A stretch of 46,781 nucleotides of DNA from Methanoculleus sp. (GTDB lineage: Archaea > Halobacteriota > Methanomicrobia > Methanomicrobiales > Methanoculleaceae). The DNA lies in assembly GCA_030156625.1 (NCBI GenBank), contig JASGMC010000005.1, positions 1-46,781 on the forward strand, given 5' to 3'. This document shows positions 13,469 to 21,378 of this stretch, piece after piece. The notes beneath the pieces were generated by a model. It did no database searches and was not told where the DNA came from. It saw nothing but the letters and a program-made list of their open reading frames with translations. The stretch's first letter is position 1; every line of letters starts with the position of its first letter. Made by a program: the position numbers and the translations under genes.

Positions 13469-14554
13469 CTACCTCACCGGCGGAGCCTCGGGTTCCCTGC
13501 TCTCCGCCGAAGGCGTCTGCTCTCCCGTAAAGAGGTGGTCGACACCCAGGATCGTGTTCACCCAGGCCCAGTCGTCGCTGAACTGGACGAGCATCAGGAC
13601 GATGAGGGTGAGCGGAACGGCAAAGATCATCCCGGCAACGCCGAGCGCCCATCCCCAGAAGATGACCGAGAGAATGACCACGAGGGCGGGGATGTCGAAA
13701 CGCCTCGATGCGAAGTGAGCGAAGATCGGGTTCTCCACCAGCGCATTCAGGATCGCGACGGCCGCAATCACCGCGATCGCGCCCCAGATCCCGAATTGCA
13801 GCCATGCAAAGAAGATCGCCGGGAGTGCCGCGACGATCAGGCCGATGTAGGGGATGTACGAGAGCAGGAACGTCAGCACCCCCCAGAGCACGGCCGCGTG
13901 CACCCCCATGACCCAGAGGAACGTGCCGAAGAGGAAACCGTGGACGAGGTTTGCCTCGGTCCTGACGATGACGAAGTCGATCAAAAACCTGCTCATGCGG
14001 GAAAATCCCTCGACACTCTCGGATCTGTTCGTCACCCTCTGTATGCGCTCGGGCATCCGCGGTGCCTCAAGGAGCATGAAGATCGTCGTCACCGCTATGA
14101 AGAAGAGGTAGAGGAGGAGGTCCGCGATGCTTACGGCGGACGAAGAGAGGAATCCGGCGAACCCCTGCAGGTTGACCGAAGAAGGAGAGAATGAGCCCGT
14201 ATCGATCCCGTATCTGTCCAGGAGTGCGATGATCTCCGATAGCCTGGCGGTCAACTCCCGCTGGTAGAGGGGGAGATCCGAGATCAAACTTTCGAACGAG
14301 AAGAAGACGAGGTAGCAGATCAGCAGGACTGCAAGGCAGGCGATGACGGCGACCACACCGACAGCGGCGAGTTCCGGCAAACCCCTGGAGCGGAGTGCTT
14401 TCGCCGCGGGATAAACGATCATGGCGAGGATCAACGATACGACGATGATGGTGATGATATACGCAATCGCCTGGATCCCGATTATGAGGAATACTGCTGC
14501 CGTCAGAAGGAGCACGGTGCCCGCGGACCGGGGAAAAACTGGGGTTTCTGTCAT
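13469..14554 (-). CDS. AI-2E family transporter (PerM/YdiK-type permease)
   Basis: 361 residues with seven or eight hydrophobic helices. The pattern is that of the AI-2E/PerM family: two N-terminal helices (TVLLLTAAVFLIIGIQAIA), a long soluble region (about residues 75-140, LIYQREL-type LPLYQRELTARLSEIIALLD), then the conserved GFLFGTFLWVMGVHAAVLWG, IPYIGLIVAALPAIFFAW and VEN-containing ALVENPIFAHFASRR loop. Family members export small molecules or ions; the substrate is rarely known and the AI-2 name should not be taken literally in a methanogen. A minus-strand TATA-like TTAATATAG at about 14578-14586 lies 28 bp before the ATG, so the message is probably leaderless. Confidence 0.9.
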   Translation of the reverse strand: MTETPVFPRSAGTVLLLTAAVFLIIGIQAIAYIITIIVVSLILAMIVYPAAKALRSRGLPELAAVGVVAVIACLAVLLICYLVFFSFESLISDLPLYQRELTARLSEIIALLDRYGIDTGSFSPSSVNLQGFAGFLSSSAVSIADLLLYLFFIAVTTIFMLLEAPRMPERIQRVTNRSESVEGFSRMSRFLIDFVIVRTEANLVHGFLFGTFLWVMGVHAAVLWGVLTFLLSYIPYIGLIVAALPAIFFAWLQFGIWGAIAVIAAVAILNALVENPIFAHFASRRFDIPALVVILSVIFWGWALGVAGMIFAVPLTLIVLMLVQFSDDWAWVNTILGVDHLFTGEQTPSAESREPEAPPVR

Positions 14555-15100: not shown

Positions 15101-16273
<1,173 letters not shown>

Positions 16274-16507
16274 TCTTGCCCGGCAAGCATCACGACAAGC
16301 GGGAACTCGTTCCACGGCGACGTCGAAATCCAGGGTGACTGCTCCGTGACCGGCTGGACGTGGAACTTCGGTGACGGGACAACCGGCAGCGGCCAGGACG
16401 TCACCCACGATTACACGTCGGAAGGGAACTTCACGGTCACGCTGACTGTGACGCTCGACGACGGGAGCACATGCCAGGCGACATCGGAGGACGGCGTACT
16501 CCTCTGA
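16274..16507 (+). pseudogene. third PKD domain beyond the in-frame TGA
   Basis: Read in the same frame as the preceding gene, this stretch begins [13 protein letters not shown] and contains [40 protein letters not shown] and STCQATSEDGVLL before a TGA at 16505-16507. It aligns with the other two PKD domains: their starts read NCSCTA and NCTCTA, here P-stop-SCPA, so the TGA stands where a Cys codon (TGC/TGT) is expected. Purifying features (WTWNFGDG, Cys pairs) are intact, so the stop is recent or is read through. No ribosome binding site exists for separate translation. Confidence 0.8.
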
Positions 16508-16577
16508 TGCATCCGCGAAAAACGGCGGGGAGATTCCCCTCCCCGTCTCCTCTTCTGGTGATACGCGGGGCGGGGGG

Positions 16578-18010
16578 TCACACTCCGACGACCGCAGCCT
16601 CGATGGTCTCCTCTCCAAGGTTTTCGGCGTGAACCTCGTCCCTGCTTAAGAACGCGAGGGCGACGACGGCGAGCGAAACCGCGAAGACGGCGACGAAGAC
16701 AAAATCGAACCCCGTGGCAAGCACGTCTATCCTGATCTCCGCCGGAGAAGACGCCGTGACGTGGCGGTGCGACGCGACCGTGAGCATTGCCTGGATAAAA
16801 AGCATGCTGATGAAGGAGATCCCGAGGGTTATCGGCCCGGAGCGCTCCACGGAGATGAGGCTTGAGACCATGCCGTGCCTGTCGCGGGGGCCATGTTCAT
16901 CACCATGTTCGTGCCGGGCGAGAGCATGAGGCCGAGACCGAACCCCACGGCGGCGAGTGTGCCGATGATGTAGTAAATCGTGCTCTCTGCCGAGAAGAGG
17001 TGGAACATCAGGTACCCGGCGGAGACGACGAGCGCACCGGCGATACAGAGCCTCCGGTTCCCGATGCTGTTGATCAGCATGCCGGAGAGGAAGCCGCTCG
17101 CCATCATGGCGAACGAGAGCGCGGTGAGGACGAGCCCGGAGGTCGACGGGTCGAAGCCCTTCACCAGTTCGAGGAAGAACGGGAGAAGGTAGTTGACGCC
17201 GCCGAAGAGGAAGTAGGAGAGGGCGAGCATGAGATTGACGTAGAGGAAGTTGCGGTTCGCAAAGAGCCGGAAATCGAGCAGCGGGTCGGCCGCCCTCCGC
17301 TCATGGAGGACGAGATACCCGAGCGCGACGCCTGCGGCCGCGAGTGCCGAAAGAATCGCCGGACTGGTCCAGCCGAGCGCGGACCCTTCGCTGACGGCGT
17401 AGATGAGGGATCCGAGCCCGACGAAGATCAGAACCGCCCCGAGACGGTCGAACGGCGAGGGCGTGCCGGTTGCCGTCCGGCCCGCCGGTATCGCGTAGGA
17501 GCCGAGCAGGATGGCCGCGAAGCCGACCGGGACGTTGATGTAAAAGATCCAGTTCCAGGAGAGGTACTGCGTCAGGACGCCCCCGAGGATCGGGCCGGCC
17601 GCGGTCCCGAACGCCGCGACCAGGGCCGGGGCGATGGCGGCGATCATCGCCCCGCCGATCGCCTGGAGCACCCTTGAAGCGATCAGCATCCAGAATGAGT
17701 CAAAGATCTCCGGGAAGAATCCGCAGAAGAACGAGCCTGCCGTGAATACACCGAACCCGGCGAGAAATACGGTCTTGAAACCGATCCTATCCGCCGCCTT
17801 GCCGAAGACGAGGACACAGCCCGTCAGCACCAGCAGGCATGCAGTTGCAACCCAGCTGACCGTCGTCGAGGGGAGGTCGAAGATCGTCGATATCGTGGGA
17901 AGAGCGATATTCACGATCGTCCCGTCAAGCGACGTCATGAACATCGCGAGAGCAACCGAAACCATGAGCAGCGTATACTGCTGCGAGGCGTTGCCGTCCG
18001 GTGAATGCAT
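16578..18010 (-). pseudogene. MFS drug exporter (DHA2/EmrB type), frameshifted and internally deleted
   Basis: The N-terminal frame (16886-18010) encodes MFMTSLDGTIVNIALPTI, the DHA2 motif, FGKAADRIGFKTVF (motif A) and GPILGGVLTQYLSWNWIFYI (motif C-like), with about 11 helices. After NMVMNMAP it shifts into a dead frame; the true continuation, RHGMVSSLISVERSGPITLG, is in another frame down to 16578. The two join if one C were added to the run of five at 16886-16890 (GGGGG on the plus strand). In addition, about 20-25 residues normally found between APALVAAF and GTAAGPILGG, covering the start of the fifth helix, are absent in frame. Two independent lesions make a working 14-helix exporter unlikely. 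The original role would be proton-driven efflux of amphipathic compounds. Confidence 0.85.
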
Positions 18011-18316
18011 ATAGAAATCTGCCTGCTGATAGGGTTAAGATTTTTTAGAACGGACGCGCCGGAGATCCCTGATTTCAGGATGGTGGCGGGAGGATCGTGT
18101 GTACGGAGATACGCGGTTGCATGCCGGTATTTCGCTGAAGCGAGCGGAGTACCGGGACATGAAGACGGCGAGGTACGTTATGGCATGTACGGAGGGAAGA
18201 GGCGACCTGTTGGGATTACTCCTCCCATGACCGGCCCTGCAAGCAGCGTGAGGGCAGAGATGCCGAAGGCGGCCGGCGCAGGTGGTTACCTTTCCGGGAG
18301 CGCGGAGACTCCGCGC
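18011..18316. other. intergenic region upstream of MFS and downstream of hybrid kinase
   Basis: No gene seen. It contains the probable MFS promoter (minus strand, AATCTTAACC near 18035, about 27 bp before the ATG) and ends in the hairpin at the kinase stop codon. Confidence 0.5.
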
Positions 18317-18318
18317 TC
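18298..18318 (-). terminator. 9-bp GC hairpin at the stop codon of the hybrid kinase
   Basis: GAGCGCGGA and TCCGCGCTC form a perfect 9-bp stem around a GAC loop, and the stem includes part of the kinase stop codon. A strong structure at this position suggests transcript termination or protection of the 3' end. No T-tract is present. Confidence 0.45.
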
Positions 18319-21274
18319 ACGAGCAGGGGTCTCGCTCCCGCTTTGCCGGTTTGAGCGTGAACCTGAATGCCGCCCCTTCTTCCGGCCGGCCGGGCACGCG
18401 GTCCTCGATCCAGATCTTTCCTCCGTAGCGCTCGGTGAGCGTCCTGCAGATGAAGAGCCCGAGCCCGTCGCCCTTCCCCCGGGCCTTCCCCCGCTCGAAC
18501 CGGTGGAAGAGCTTCTCCTTCGTATCGTCCGGCACGCCGGGCCCGGTGTCCTCCACCGAGACCAGCACCTCGCCGTCCCGCTCCTCCGCCCGGACGACGA
18601 TCTCCACGTCCGGGCCGCCGAACTTGAGGCTGTTGCCGATGAGGTTCGTAAAGACCGTGGAGAGGAGGTTGTCCGCCAGGACATCGAGCGGTGGAACTTC
18701 CTGCCGTATCGATGCTCCGCGGAAATTTCCAATCTCCTCTTCTATGACCGCGTTGAGACTCACCGGCGCAAAATCCGCTGATTCCGTATGGATCCGCCGG
18801 AACGTCGCCACGTTCATGAGGATCTCTGTGCTCCGTGCGATGCTGTCGTGGAGTTTTTGAGCGTAGGTCTTCTCGGCGCCCTCGAGCAGGTCGAGCATGA
18901 GGTCGGCGTAGATGCCGGAGACGTTGTTCGCGTTCCTGATATCGTGCGTCATGATGTCGAGATACAGGTTTGCCTCCCGGTGCGCCTCCTCGAGGCTTGC
19001 GATCAGCCGACTTCGCTCCTCCTCGGCCTGTTTCCGATCGGTAATGTCGCGTGCGTTCACGATGAACCCCCGGGCGCTCCCCTCCCGGAGCAGGTTCGCA
19101 CCGGTGACGTCGAGGTATATCCACCGCCCTGCAGAGTCCCGGACCCTGATCTCGAAGGTGAGTCTCGCCGATGGCTGGGCCGCCCCGGTTCTCATCGCCT
19201 CCAGCACCGCCGGTACATCGTCCGGATGCGTGAGGTTGAGCACGTTCGTGCCGATGAGGCCGTCGGGGTCGTAGCCCCCGATCCGCTTCACCGAGGGGCT
19301 CGCATAGGTGATACGCCCGTTCGTATCGAGAAGGATGATGATATCGGACGCGTTCTCGATGAGAGAACGGAAATGCTCCTCGCTCTCCTGCAGGGCCCGG
19401 TTGAGATGCACCAGTTCGTTGCTCTTCTCCTGGAGTTGCTCGGTGGTGCATTGCAGTTCCTCGTTCTGGACTTCCATCTCTTCGGCGAACTGCTGCAGCT
19501 GTTCCAGGAGTTTCTGCCTCTGCGCTTCCGCCCGCTTAATCTCCGTAATCTCCGTTCCGACGGCGATGGCTCCGGTGACGTCTCCCTGTGCGTCCCGCAG
19601 GGGTGTTTTTGTGAAATAGAATGTTCTGTCGCCGGCCGCTTCTTCGAAGGTCTCGGTGGTCCCGGTCTCCATAACGCGCCGCTCGTTGGCAACGACAGGC
19701 CCGCCGACTTCCTCGCCGAGGAGTTCGATTGCCGTTCTGCCGAGCACTTCGCTGGCCGGCCAGCCCATCATCCGGAGCACGGCAGGGTTGCACATAACGA
19801 ACCGGTTCCGGCGGTCTACAGCGTAGATAGGTGCCGGCGTGTTCTCGGTGATGGCGTTGAGAAGGGCGTTGGCCTTCGCGAGCTGGTCCGTGCGTTCGAT
19901 CACGCGCTCCTCAAGCGTCTCGTTCAACCTCTGTAATGCCTCCTCGGCCCGCTTGCGCTTGGTGATGTCGATACCCATCTCCAGGATATGGAGCGTTCCG
20001 TCCGTTTCGGTGAAGGGGAAGTCGAAGATATCGTAATCGTGGCCGTCCGGGCCGGTCCACTCCCAGTGGTGGGGCGCCTTCGTCTTCATGACGCGGTAGG
20101 ACTCGCAGTTCTCGCAGGGCTCAGTGAGTCCGAAGAGATACTCGAAGCAGCGCCGGCCGCCGGACTCGCCGAACCGCTCCCGGAAGAAGCGGTTCGCGAA
20201 AGGCACGTGATAGTCCGGGGACAGCAGTACCACGTACGCTGGCAGCGTCTCCAGGACATCGTAGAGGCGTTGCCGCTCTGTCTTCACCGCCTCCTCCGCC
20301 CGGGCGCGCTCGGCGATCTCTGCCTGCAGGGCTTCGTTCGCCTCCCGGAGTTTGAGAGTGCGCTCCAGAACGCGCGTTTCCAATTCGTCGTGCGCTCTCT
20401 GCAGCGCCTCTTCGGCCCGTTTGCGCTCGGTGATGTCATGGCCCTGGGCGATGACCGATGAGACCGTTGTCCGATCGTCCCCGTACACGGCGGCGGAGTT
20501 CCACAGCACGGTCCTGATCCTGCCGTCCGCCGTGAGTATGGGGATCTCGACGGTCTCCCACCGCTCCCCGGCGGTCGTCTTCCGGATGAGATCCATCAGT
20601 TCTTCCCGCCGGCCTTCGGGGAAGAGTATCTCCGGGGACCGCCCGACGACCTCGCCCGCGGTTCGACCCGTCAGCCGCTCGAAGGCGCTGTTGAACCTGG
20701 TGATCCTGAGGTCTGCGTCCCAGACGATGATGGGGGCGTTGGCGTACGCGATCAGGTTCTCCAGGTGCTGGGTCGTCTCGCGCAGCGAACGTTCGCTCCT
20801 TCCCAATTCGTCCAGGTTCTGTCTCAGTTCCTCCTCTACCACCGAGAGATCTTCGTACGCATCGTTGAGCTCCCTGTTCTTGCGGACCAGTTCCCGTTCG
20901 ATGCGTTTACGCTCCTGTGCGTAGCGTATCGACCGCATGAAGGACGAACCCGTCAGCCGGCCCTTCACGAGATAGTCCTGCGCCCCCTCCTGGAGTGCCG
21001 CAAGGCCGGTCTCTTCGTCGTCAAGCCCGGTCAGGACCACGATGGGGACGTCCGGCACGTGTCTCCCCACGGTCCCGACCGTATCGATACCCCGGCTGTC
21101 CGGGAGGTTCAGGTCGAGGAGGATGAGATCGATTCCTCCCTCGTGCAGGATGGAGAGCGCGGACGAGAGATACTGTGCGGATTCGATCTCAATATCGAGC
21201 CCCGGGGAATCCGCGAGCAGTTCCCGTATCAGTTCCAGGTCTGCCGGGTTGTCCTCGACCACCAGGATCTTCAT
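18317..21274 (-). CDS. hybrid sensor histidine kinase: receiver, four PAS domains, kinase core
   Basis: 985 residues, cytoplasmic. An N-terminal receiver (1-120) has the acidic pair in VEDNPADLEL, the phosphoacceptor in LILLDLNLPDS and the Lys in DYLVKGRL. Long coiled coils alternate with PAS domains at about 175-290, 345-460, 485-605 and 645-770; the second carries a Cys cluster (CFEYLFGLTEPCENCESY) that might bind a metal or report redox state. The dimerisation helix has MTHDIRNANNV, with the phosphoacceptor His, and the HATPase domain has NLIGNSLKFGG, EDTGPGVPDDT and GDGLGLFICRTL. A receiver at the front of a kinase suggests that another kinase controls it. The ATG at 21274 directly follows the receiver remnant (2 nt gap), which fixes the start at MKILVVEDN. 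Confidence 0.92.
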   Translation of the reverse strand: MKILVVEDNPADLELIRELLADSPGLDIEIESAQYLSSALSILHEGGIDLILLDLNLPDSRGIDTVGTVGRHVPDVPIVVLTGLDDEETGLAALQEGAQDYLVKGRLTGSSFMRSIRYAQERKRIERELVRKNRELNDAYEDLSVVEEELRQNLDELGRSERSLRETTQHLENLIAYANAPIIVWDADLRITRFNSAFERLTGRTAGEVVGRSPEILFPEGRREELMDLIRKTTAGERWETVEIPILTADGRIRTVLWNSAAVYGDDRTTVSSVIAQGHDITERKRAEEALQRAHDELETRVLERTLKLREANEALQAEIAERARAEEAVKTERQRLYDVLETLPAYVVLLSPDYHVPFANRFFRERFGESGGRRCFEYLFGLTEPCENCESYRVMKTKAPHHWEWTGPDGHDYDIFDFPFTETDGTLHILEMGIDITKRKRAEEALQRLNETLEERVIERTDQLAKANALLNAITENTPAPIYAVDRRNRFVMCNPAVLRMMGWPASEVLGRTAIELLGEEVGGPVVANERRVMETGTTETFEEAAGDRTFYFTKTPLRDAQGDVTGAIAVGTEITEIKRAEAQRQKLLEQLQQFAEEMEVQNEELQCTTEQLQEKSNELVHLNRALQESEEHFRSLIENASDIIILLDTNGRITYASPSVKRIGGYDPDGLIGTNVLNLTHPDDVPAVLEAMRTGAAQPSARLTFEIRVRDSAGRWIYLDVTGANLLREGSARGFIVNARDITDRKQAEEERSRLIASLEEAHREANLYLDIMTHDIRNANNVSGIYADLMLDLLEGAEKTYAQKLHDSIARSTEILMNVATFRRIHTESADFAPVSLNAVIEEEIGNFRGASIRQEVPPLDVLADNLLSTVFTNLIGNSLKFGGPDVEIVVRAEERDGEVLVSVEDTGPGVPDDTKEKLFHRFERGKARGKGDGLGLFICRTLTERYGGKIWIEDRVPGRPEEGAAFRFTLKPAKRERDPCS

Positions 21275-21276
21275 GC

Positions 21277-21378
21277 TCACTCTCCACACCGGGGCGGCAG
21301 GGTCACGATCGAGAACCAGAAATCTTCGATCGACTGGACGATCTTGATGAACTCTTCGAACTTCAACGGTTTGCGCAT
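21277..21378 (-). pseudogene. C-terminal fragment of a response-regulator receiver
   Basis: A 33-codon frame reading MRKPLKFEEFIKIVQSIEDF and on to W, then a short tail. This is the end of a stand-alone receiver protein: the (S/A)YxRKP motif contains the conserved Lys that follows the fifth strand, and FxxFxxxVxxxxxFW is the last helix of Rcp-type regulators. Everything upstream (about 110 residues with the phosphorylation site) is missing, and a TGA blocks the frame 6-9 codons before the ATG. GAGAGGA sits 5 nt before the ATG, so the stub may still be translated and could couple translation to the kinase gene that begins 2 nt after its stop. Confidence 0.7.

Follow-up and report, generated by a model that had tools for sequence, protein, structure and literature searches.

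Selenocysteine-using archaea comprise, according to a 2024 survey, only the Methanococcales, Methanopyrus and Asgard archaea (PMC11227280). The selenoprotein genes of these groups carry an in-frame TGA at a Cys position, and so does the locus described here, a gene for a multi-PKD surface protein of Methanoculleus. For this gene, by contrast, the searches gave no selenocysteine machinery over the cut-offs and no SECIS match, and the frame downstream of its TGA is not conserved among its TGA-bearing relatives. A literature search on PKD proteins in Methanoculleus found no paper, and a search of a phage collection gave no match.

We analyzed a stretch of 46,781 nucleotides (the window) from the genome of a Methanoculleus species (G000, an assembly of 130 contigs that is 82% complete) and compared the locus across 35 genomes of the genus. 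An inherited TGC-to-TGA nonsense truncation of the surface protein, with decay beyond the stop, appears to explain the locus best, with a probability that we put at roughly 0.93 from the comparison of sequences.

Results

Organization of the gene and of the frame beyond the TGA

Translation from the ATG at 15101 gives 390 codons up to the TGA at 16271-16273, and the same frame then stays open for 77 codons (16274-16504) until a second TGA at 16505-16507. The features of the locus are listed below, where G015 is a relative with the intact allele and G026 and G027 are two relatives with the TGA.

15101..16273, + strand: current gene, whose product of 390 aa is secreted or a surface protein (translation; Pfam PKD_4 and PKD matches in two stretches; 10 more species with an orthologue) and has a hydrophobic segment at the N-terminus, a conserved N-terminal segment, PKD domains 1 and 2 and a Pro-Thr tail, up to the TGA at 16271-16273
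15608..15870, + strand: PKD domain 1 (translation, profile matches, comparison with orthologues)
15880..16140, + strand: PKD domain 2 (DNA identity of 96% to G027 and 78% to G015)
16154..16260, + strand: hexamer array, CCGACA/CCGACG repeated about 18 times, which codes for a (PT)n tract (TRF; orthologue comparison)
16271..16273, + strand: in-frame TGA at a Cys codon position, TGC in 8/8 intact orthologues and common to G026 and G027
16274..16504, + strand: what is left of the ancestral fourth, C-terminal PKD domain, in a frame that is still open but probably untranslated
16505..16507, + strand: ancestral end-of-gene stop codon TGA (aligned with the stops of intact orthologues)
16524..16546, + strand: GC-rich hairpin 3' of the gene, probably a transcription terminator (found too in the intact orthologue G015)

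In searches with Pfam profiles, the part before the TGA scores above the curated cut-offs, with 127 bits for PF18911 (two domains) and 68.8 bits for PF00801. The 77 codons after the TGA match PKD_4 (PF18911; 6.3e-18, 65 bits against a cut-off of 27) and PKD (PF00801; 5.4e-13, 49.2 bits, likewise over its cut-off), and a separate PF00801 search places the domain at 16310-16480. Because of these two matches, the open frame beyond the TGA is, as judged from the profiles, a homologous PKD domain and not a chance open frame. Translation and profile matches thus agree with the original prediction, in which a TGA at 16271-16273 was followed by 77 open in-frame codons encoding a PKD domain.

Orthologues and the codon at the TGA site

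Using the N-terminal 152 residues as query against the 35 genus genomes, we found one close orthologue in each of 10 other genomes, with 86-95% identity over these first 152 aa; the remaining listed matches, less than 50% identical, were treated as paralogues. Eight of the ten orthologues have four PKD domains in a single frame and the C-terminus ...QAFVVF or ...QAFVIF. In all eight the codon at the TGA site is TGC, in the context CCC TGC, and the frame reads on to the far stop. The P-*-SCPA of the window aligns with the P-C-SCSA of these proteins, in keeping with the earlier view that a Cys codon had been replaced. Since CCC TGC occurs in every intact orthologue, the ancestral codon would most simply be a Cys TGC, from which the window appears to differ by a C-to-A change.

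The same TGA is present in G027 (CCA TGA TCC TGC, protein ...TPTPSP-*-SCPA) and in G026 (CCC TGA TCC TGC, protein ...PTPTPSP-*-SCSA), the assembly of the latter breaking inside the Pro-Thr repeat at the end of contig C8 and resuming at the start of contig C9. With TGC in eight species and TGA in three, the point mutation preferred in the original prediction is upheld. Past the stop, 84 bases and then one more (GGTCA-GCTGA) are missing from G027, which creates new in-frame stops, while in G026 nearly the whole of domain 4 is deleted, up to the old gene end. The frame beyond the TGA is therefore not conserved among the TGA-bearing homologues. As the two lesions differ, they arose separately, and their position beyond one shared stop indicates that domain 4 was dispensable in both lineages. 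Only one PKD domain stands ahead of the Pro-Thr repeats in G026, a structure that would result if recombination between repeats had fused domains 1 and 2.

Intact orthologues have the order D1-D2-D3-D4, while the window has no D3 and carries the hexamer array at 16154-16260 in its place; related Pro-Thr-rich tracts occupy the position of domain 3 in G026 and G027. It follows that the domain after the TGA, originally described as a complete third PKD domain, is real but corresponds to the ancestral fourth, the ancestral third being the one that is missing. Since the three TGA alleles have the Pro-Thr tract, the TGA and the 3' end in common, a single origin is probable; the signal in the N-terminal gene tree is too low to show them as one clade.

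Constraint on the remnant of domain 4

Changes unique to G000 in domain 4 number six, of which 5 are nonsynonymous and 1 is synonymous, a ratio near the neutral expectation of 159:48 sites. Summed over the intact species, the domain shows 14 nonsynonymous and 21 synonymous changes, far under the neutral expectation (binomial p = 3e-6). The contrast between G000 and the intact species, which rests on six changes, gives a one-sided Fisher p of 0.063. Pairwise dN/dS between the window and the intact species (0.15-0.48) is not clearly above the values between intact species, and the window's own domain 4 is fully open with a still good PKD-domain score, which counts against decay. Relaxed constraint or lesions beyond the stop are found in G026 and G027, and for the window copy the counts are suggestive. 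Its open frame fits a constraint that was lost recently, and no observation requires it to be translated.

Mosaic structure of the locus

The flanks of the gene resemble those of G015, with identities of 98.8% upstream (14051-14554) and 95.5% downstream (18320-21260). Between about 14.6 and 16.8 kb the identity is 78-93% to G015 and 84-97% to G027, the latter being higher in every block except PKD domain 1. The flank trees are pulled apart by this mosaic. The tree of the upstream flank joins G000 with G015 (100/100), and that of the N-terminal part of the gene joins G000 with G027 (97/98). Because the flanks (14051-14554 and 17373-21260) are 95-99% like G015 and the gene is mostly closest to G027, the allele probably arrived by recombination, the simplest reading being that a truncated, G027-like allele replaced the gene by homologous exchange. 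Alternatively, the mosaic may reflect incomplete lineage sorting or a chimera formed in binning; rpoB is not in the G000 assembly.

The MFS transporter gene at 17373-18010 shows 60 gap positions relative to G015, and the window copy may carry a small deletion. The response regulator-PAS-histidine kinase gene at 18317-21289 adjoins the PKD locus in the window, as it does in G015 and G010, and no close copy of it was found in G026, G027 and G009.

Searches for selenocysteine machinery and suppressor tRNAs

None of the 35 genus genomes has a match over the curated cut-off for SepSecS (TIGR03531), the control for which gives a match only in Methanocaldococcus jannaschii, as expected, or for SelD (TIGR00476), for which just weaker matches lie beneath the cut-off. 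Likewise, the selenocysteine tRNA that the original prediction had proposed to look for (RF01852) does not exceed the gathering score in any of the 35. Every sub-threshold RF01852 match that we checked, the highest-scoring one of the genus among them, is a tRNA for Arg or Ser; in G000, four of the five matches, its best included, were typed as Arg and Ser tRNAs. A SECIS hairpin, for which a search had also been suggested, was not recovered either: no SECIS family is among the Rfam matches up to E 10, in a database whose cover of archaeal SECIS elements may be incomplete, and the fold after the TGA is weak (z-score -1.77). The hairpin 3' of the gene is more likely a terminator than a TGA-specific element, since the TGC orthologue G015 has it too.

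An opal suppressor tRNA was considered and rejected, as none was found in G000 or G026. No UCA anticodon is present among the typed tRNAs of G000 (82% complete) and G026 (99% complete), a set that does not include tRNA-Trp and from which a suppressor with a long intron could have escaped.

Discussion

Three species share the stop, eight relatives have a sense codon at its position, and separate lesions lie beyond it in two of the three. Termination of translation at the TGA is strongly implied. One could imagine that the TGA is an error of sequencing or assembly, or that strains were binned into a chimera, given the fragmented, incomplete assembly, the mosaic locus and the hexamer repeat that lies 10 bases ahead of the TGA; the identical TGA in the same context in two other genus genomes refutes an error for the TGA itself and leaves this explanation very improbable. 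Insertion of selenocysteine would fit the replacement of a Cys codon, the pattern expected for a Sec/Cys exchange. It is nevertheless close to negligible in our estimate, in agreement with the original prediction, in view of the destroyed downstream frame in the TGA relatives, the failure to find SepSecS, SelD and tRNA-Sec over the cut-offs in the 35 genomes, and a 3' hairpin common to an orthologue with TGC, with no SECIS family matched. A CxC with a structural role in a secreted PKD domain would also be an atypical redox site.

Low-level readthrough or suppression, formerly listed as a third option, would yield a C-terminally extended isoform in the window species, where domain 4 is open and recognizable. 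This too has at most a slim chance of being right, as two relatives that share the stop no longer have the domain, the typing of tRNAs in G000 and G026 turned up none with a UCA anticodon, and the G000 branch of domain 4 gives no sign of purifying selection. Similarly far-fetched is a more elaborate version, in which a leaky stop in the window species would display a minor longer isoform with an extra PKD domain, and recombination would carry the stop allele from species to species, where it would act as a switch for the length of the surface protein. Restoration of domain 4 by slippage in the Pro-Thr hexamer array just upstream of the TGA, or its production from an internal start, can practically be set aside: both sides of the TGA are in one frame, so that whole 6-base units cannot bypass the stop, and a 77-codon product has no evident start codon that comes with a signal sequence. 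Homologues ending at the same stop, pointed out at the outset as a finding that would refute the exotic readings, were indeed found, in G026 and G027.

For the inherited nonsense truncation, we infer the order of events, recombination included, as follows. The ancestral Methanoculleus protein would have had four PKD domains, one of which, domain 3, may have been lost in a common ancestor of the three alleles with TGA, a Pro-Thr-rich linker taking its place. Through a C-to-A change, TGC, the first Cys codon in domain 4, would have become TGA, so that translation would stop after the Pro-Thr tail and domain 4 would not be made. The DNA past the stop would then decay: parts of it are deleted in G026 and G027, with a frameshift in the latter, and the window lineage still has it intact. 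The window species probably gained its allele from a G027-like relative via homologous recombination.

An in-frame TGA at a Cys codon can thus mimic selenocysteine, while comparison of sister species reveals a plain nonsense truncation. Because two other species share the stop, with the DNA beyond it lost or scrambled, the TGA is no special recoding signal; it is an ordinary nonsense mutation that cuts short a fast-changing surface protein in three species. On a small scale, the locus shows repeat domains being lost from archaeal surface proteins and alleles passing from one species to another.

Compared with the four-PKD orthologues of Methanoculleus (e.g., M. sediminis S3Fa and M. chikugoensis L21-II-0), the window copy agrees in its N-terminal segment (86-95% identity), in its PKD repeats, which carry CxC motifs, and in the sequence of the C-terminal domain, and with one of them, G015, it also shares the 3' hairpin. 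In contrast to the window, these orthologues have kept domain 3 and have TGC instead of TGA, so that domain 4 is translated. With the truncated alleles of G026 and G027 it has in common the TGA, the 3' end and a Pro-Thr-rich tract that follows the final translated PKD domain; in these alleles the downstream domain is deleted and/or frameshifted, whereas the window copy is still open.
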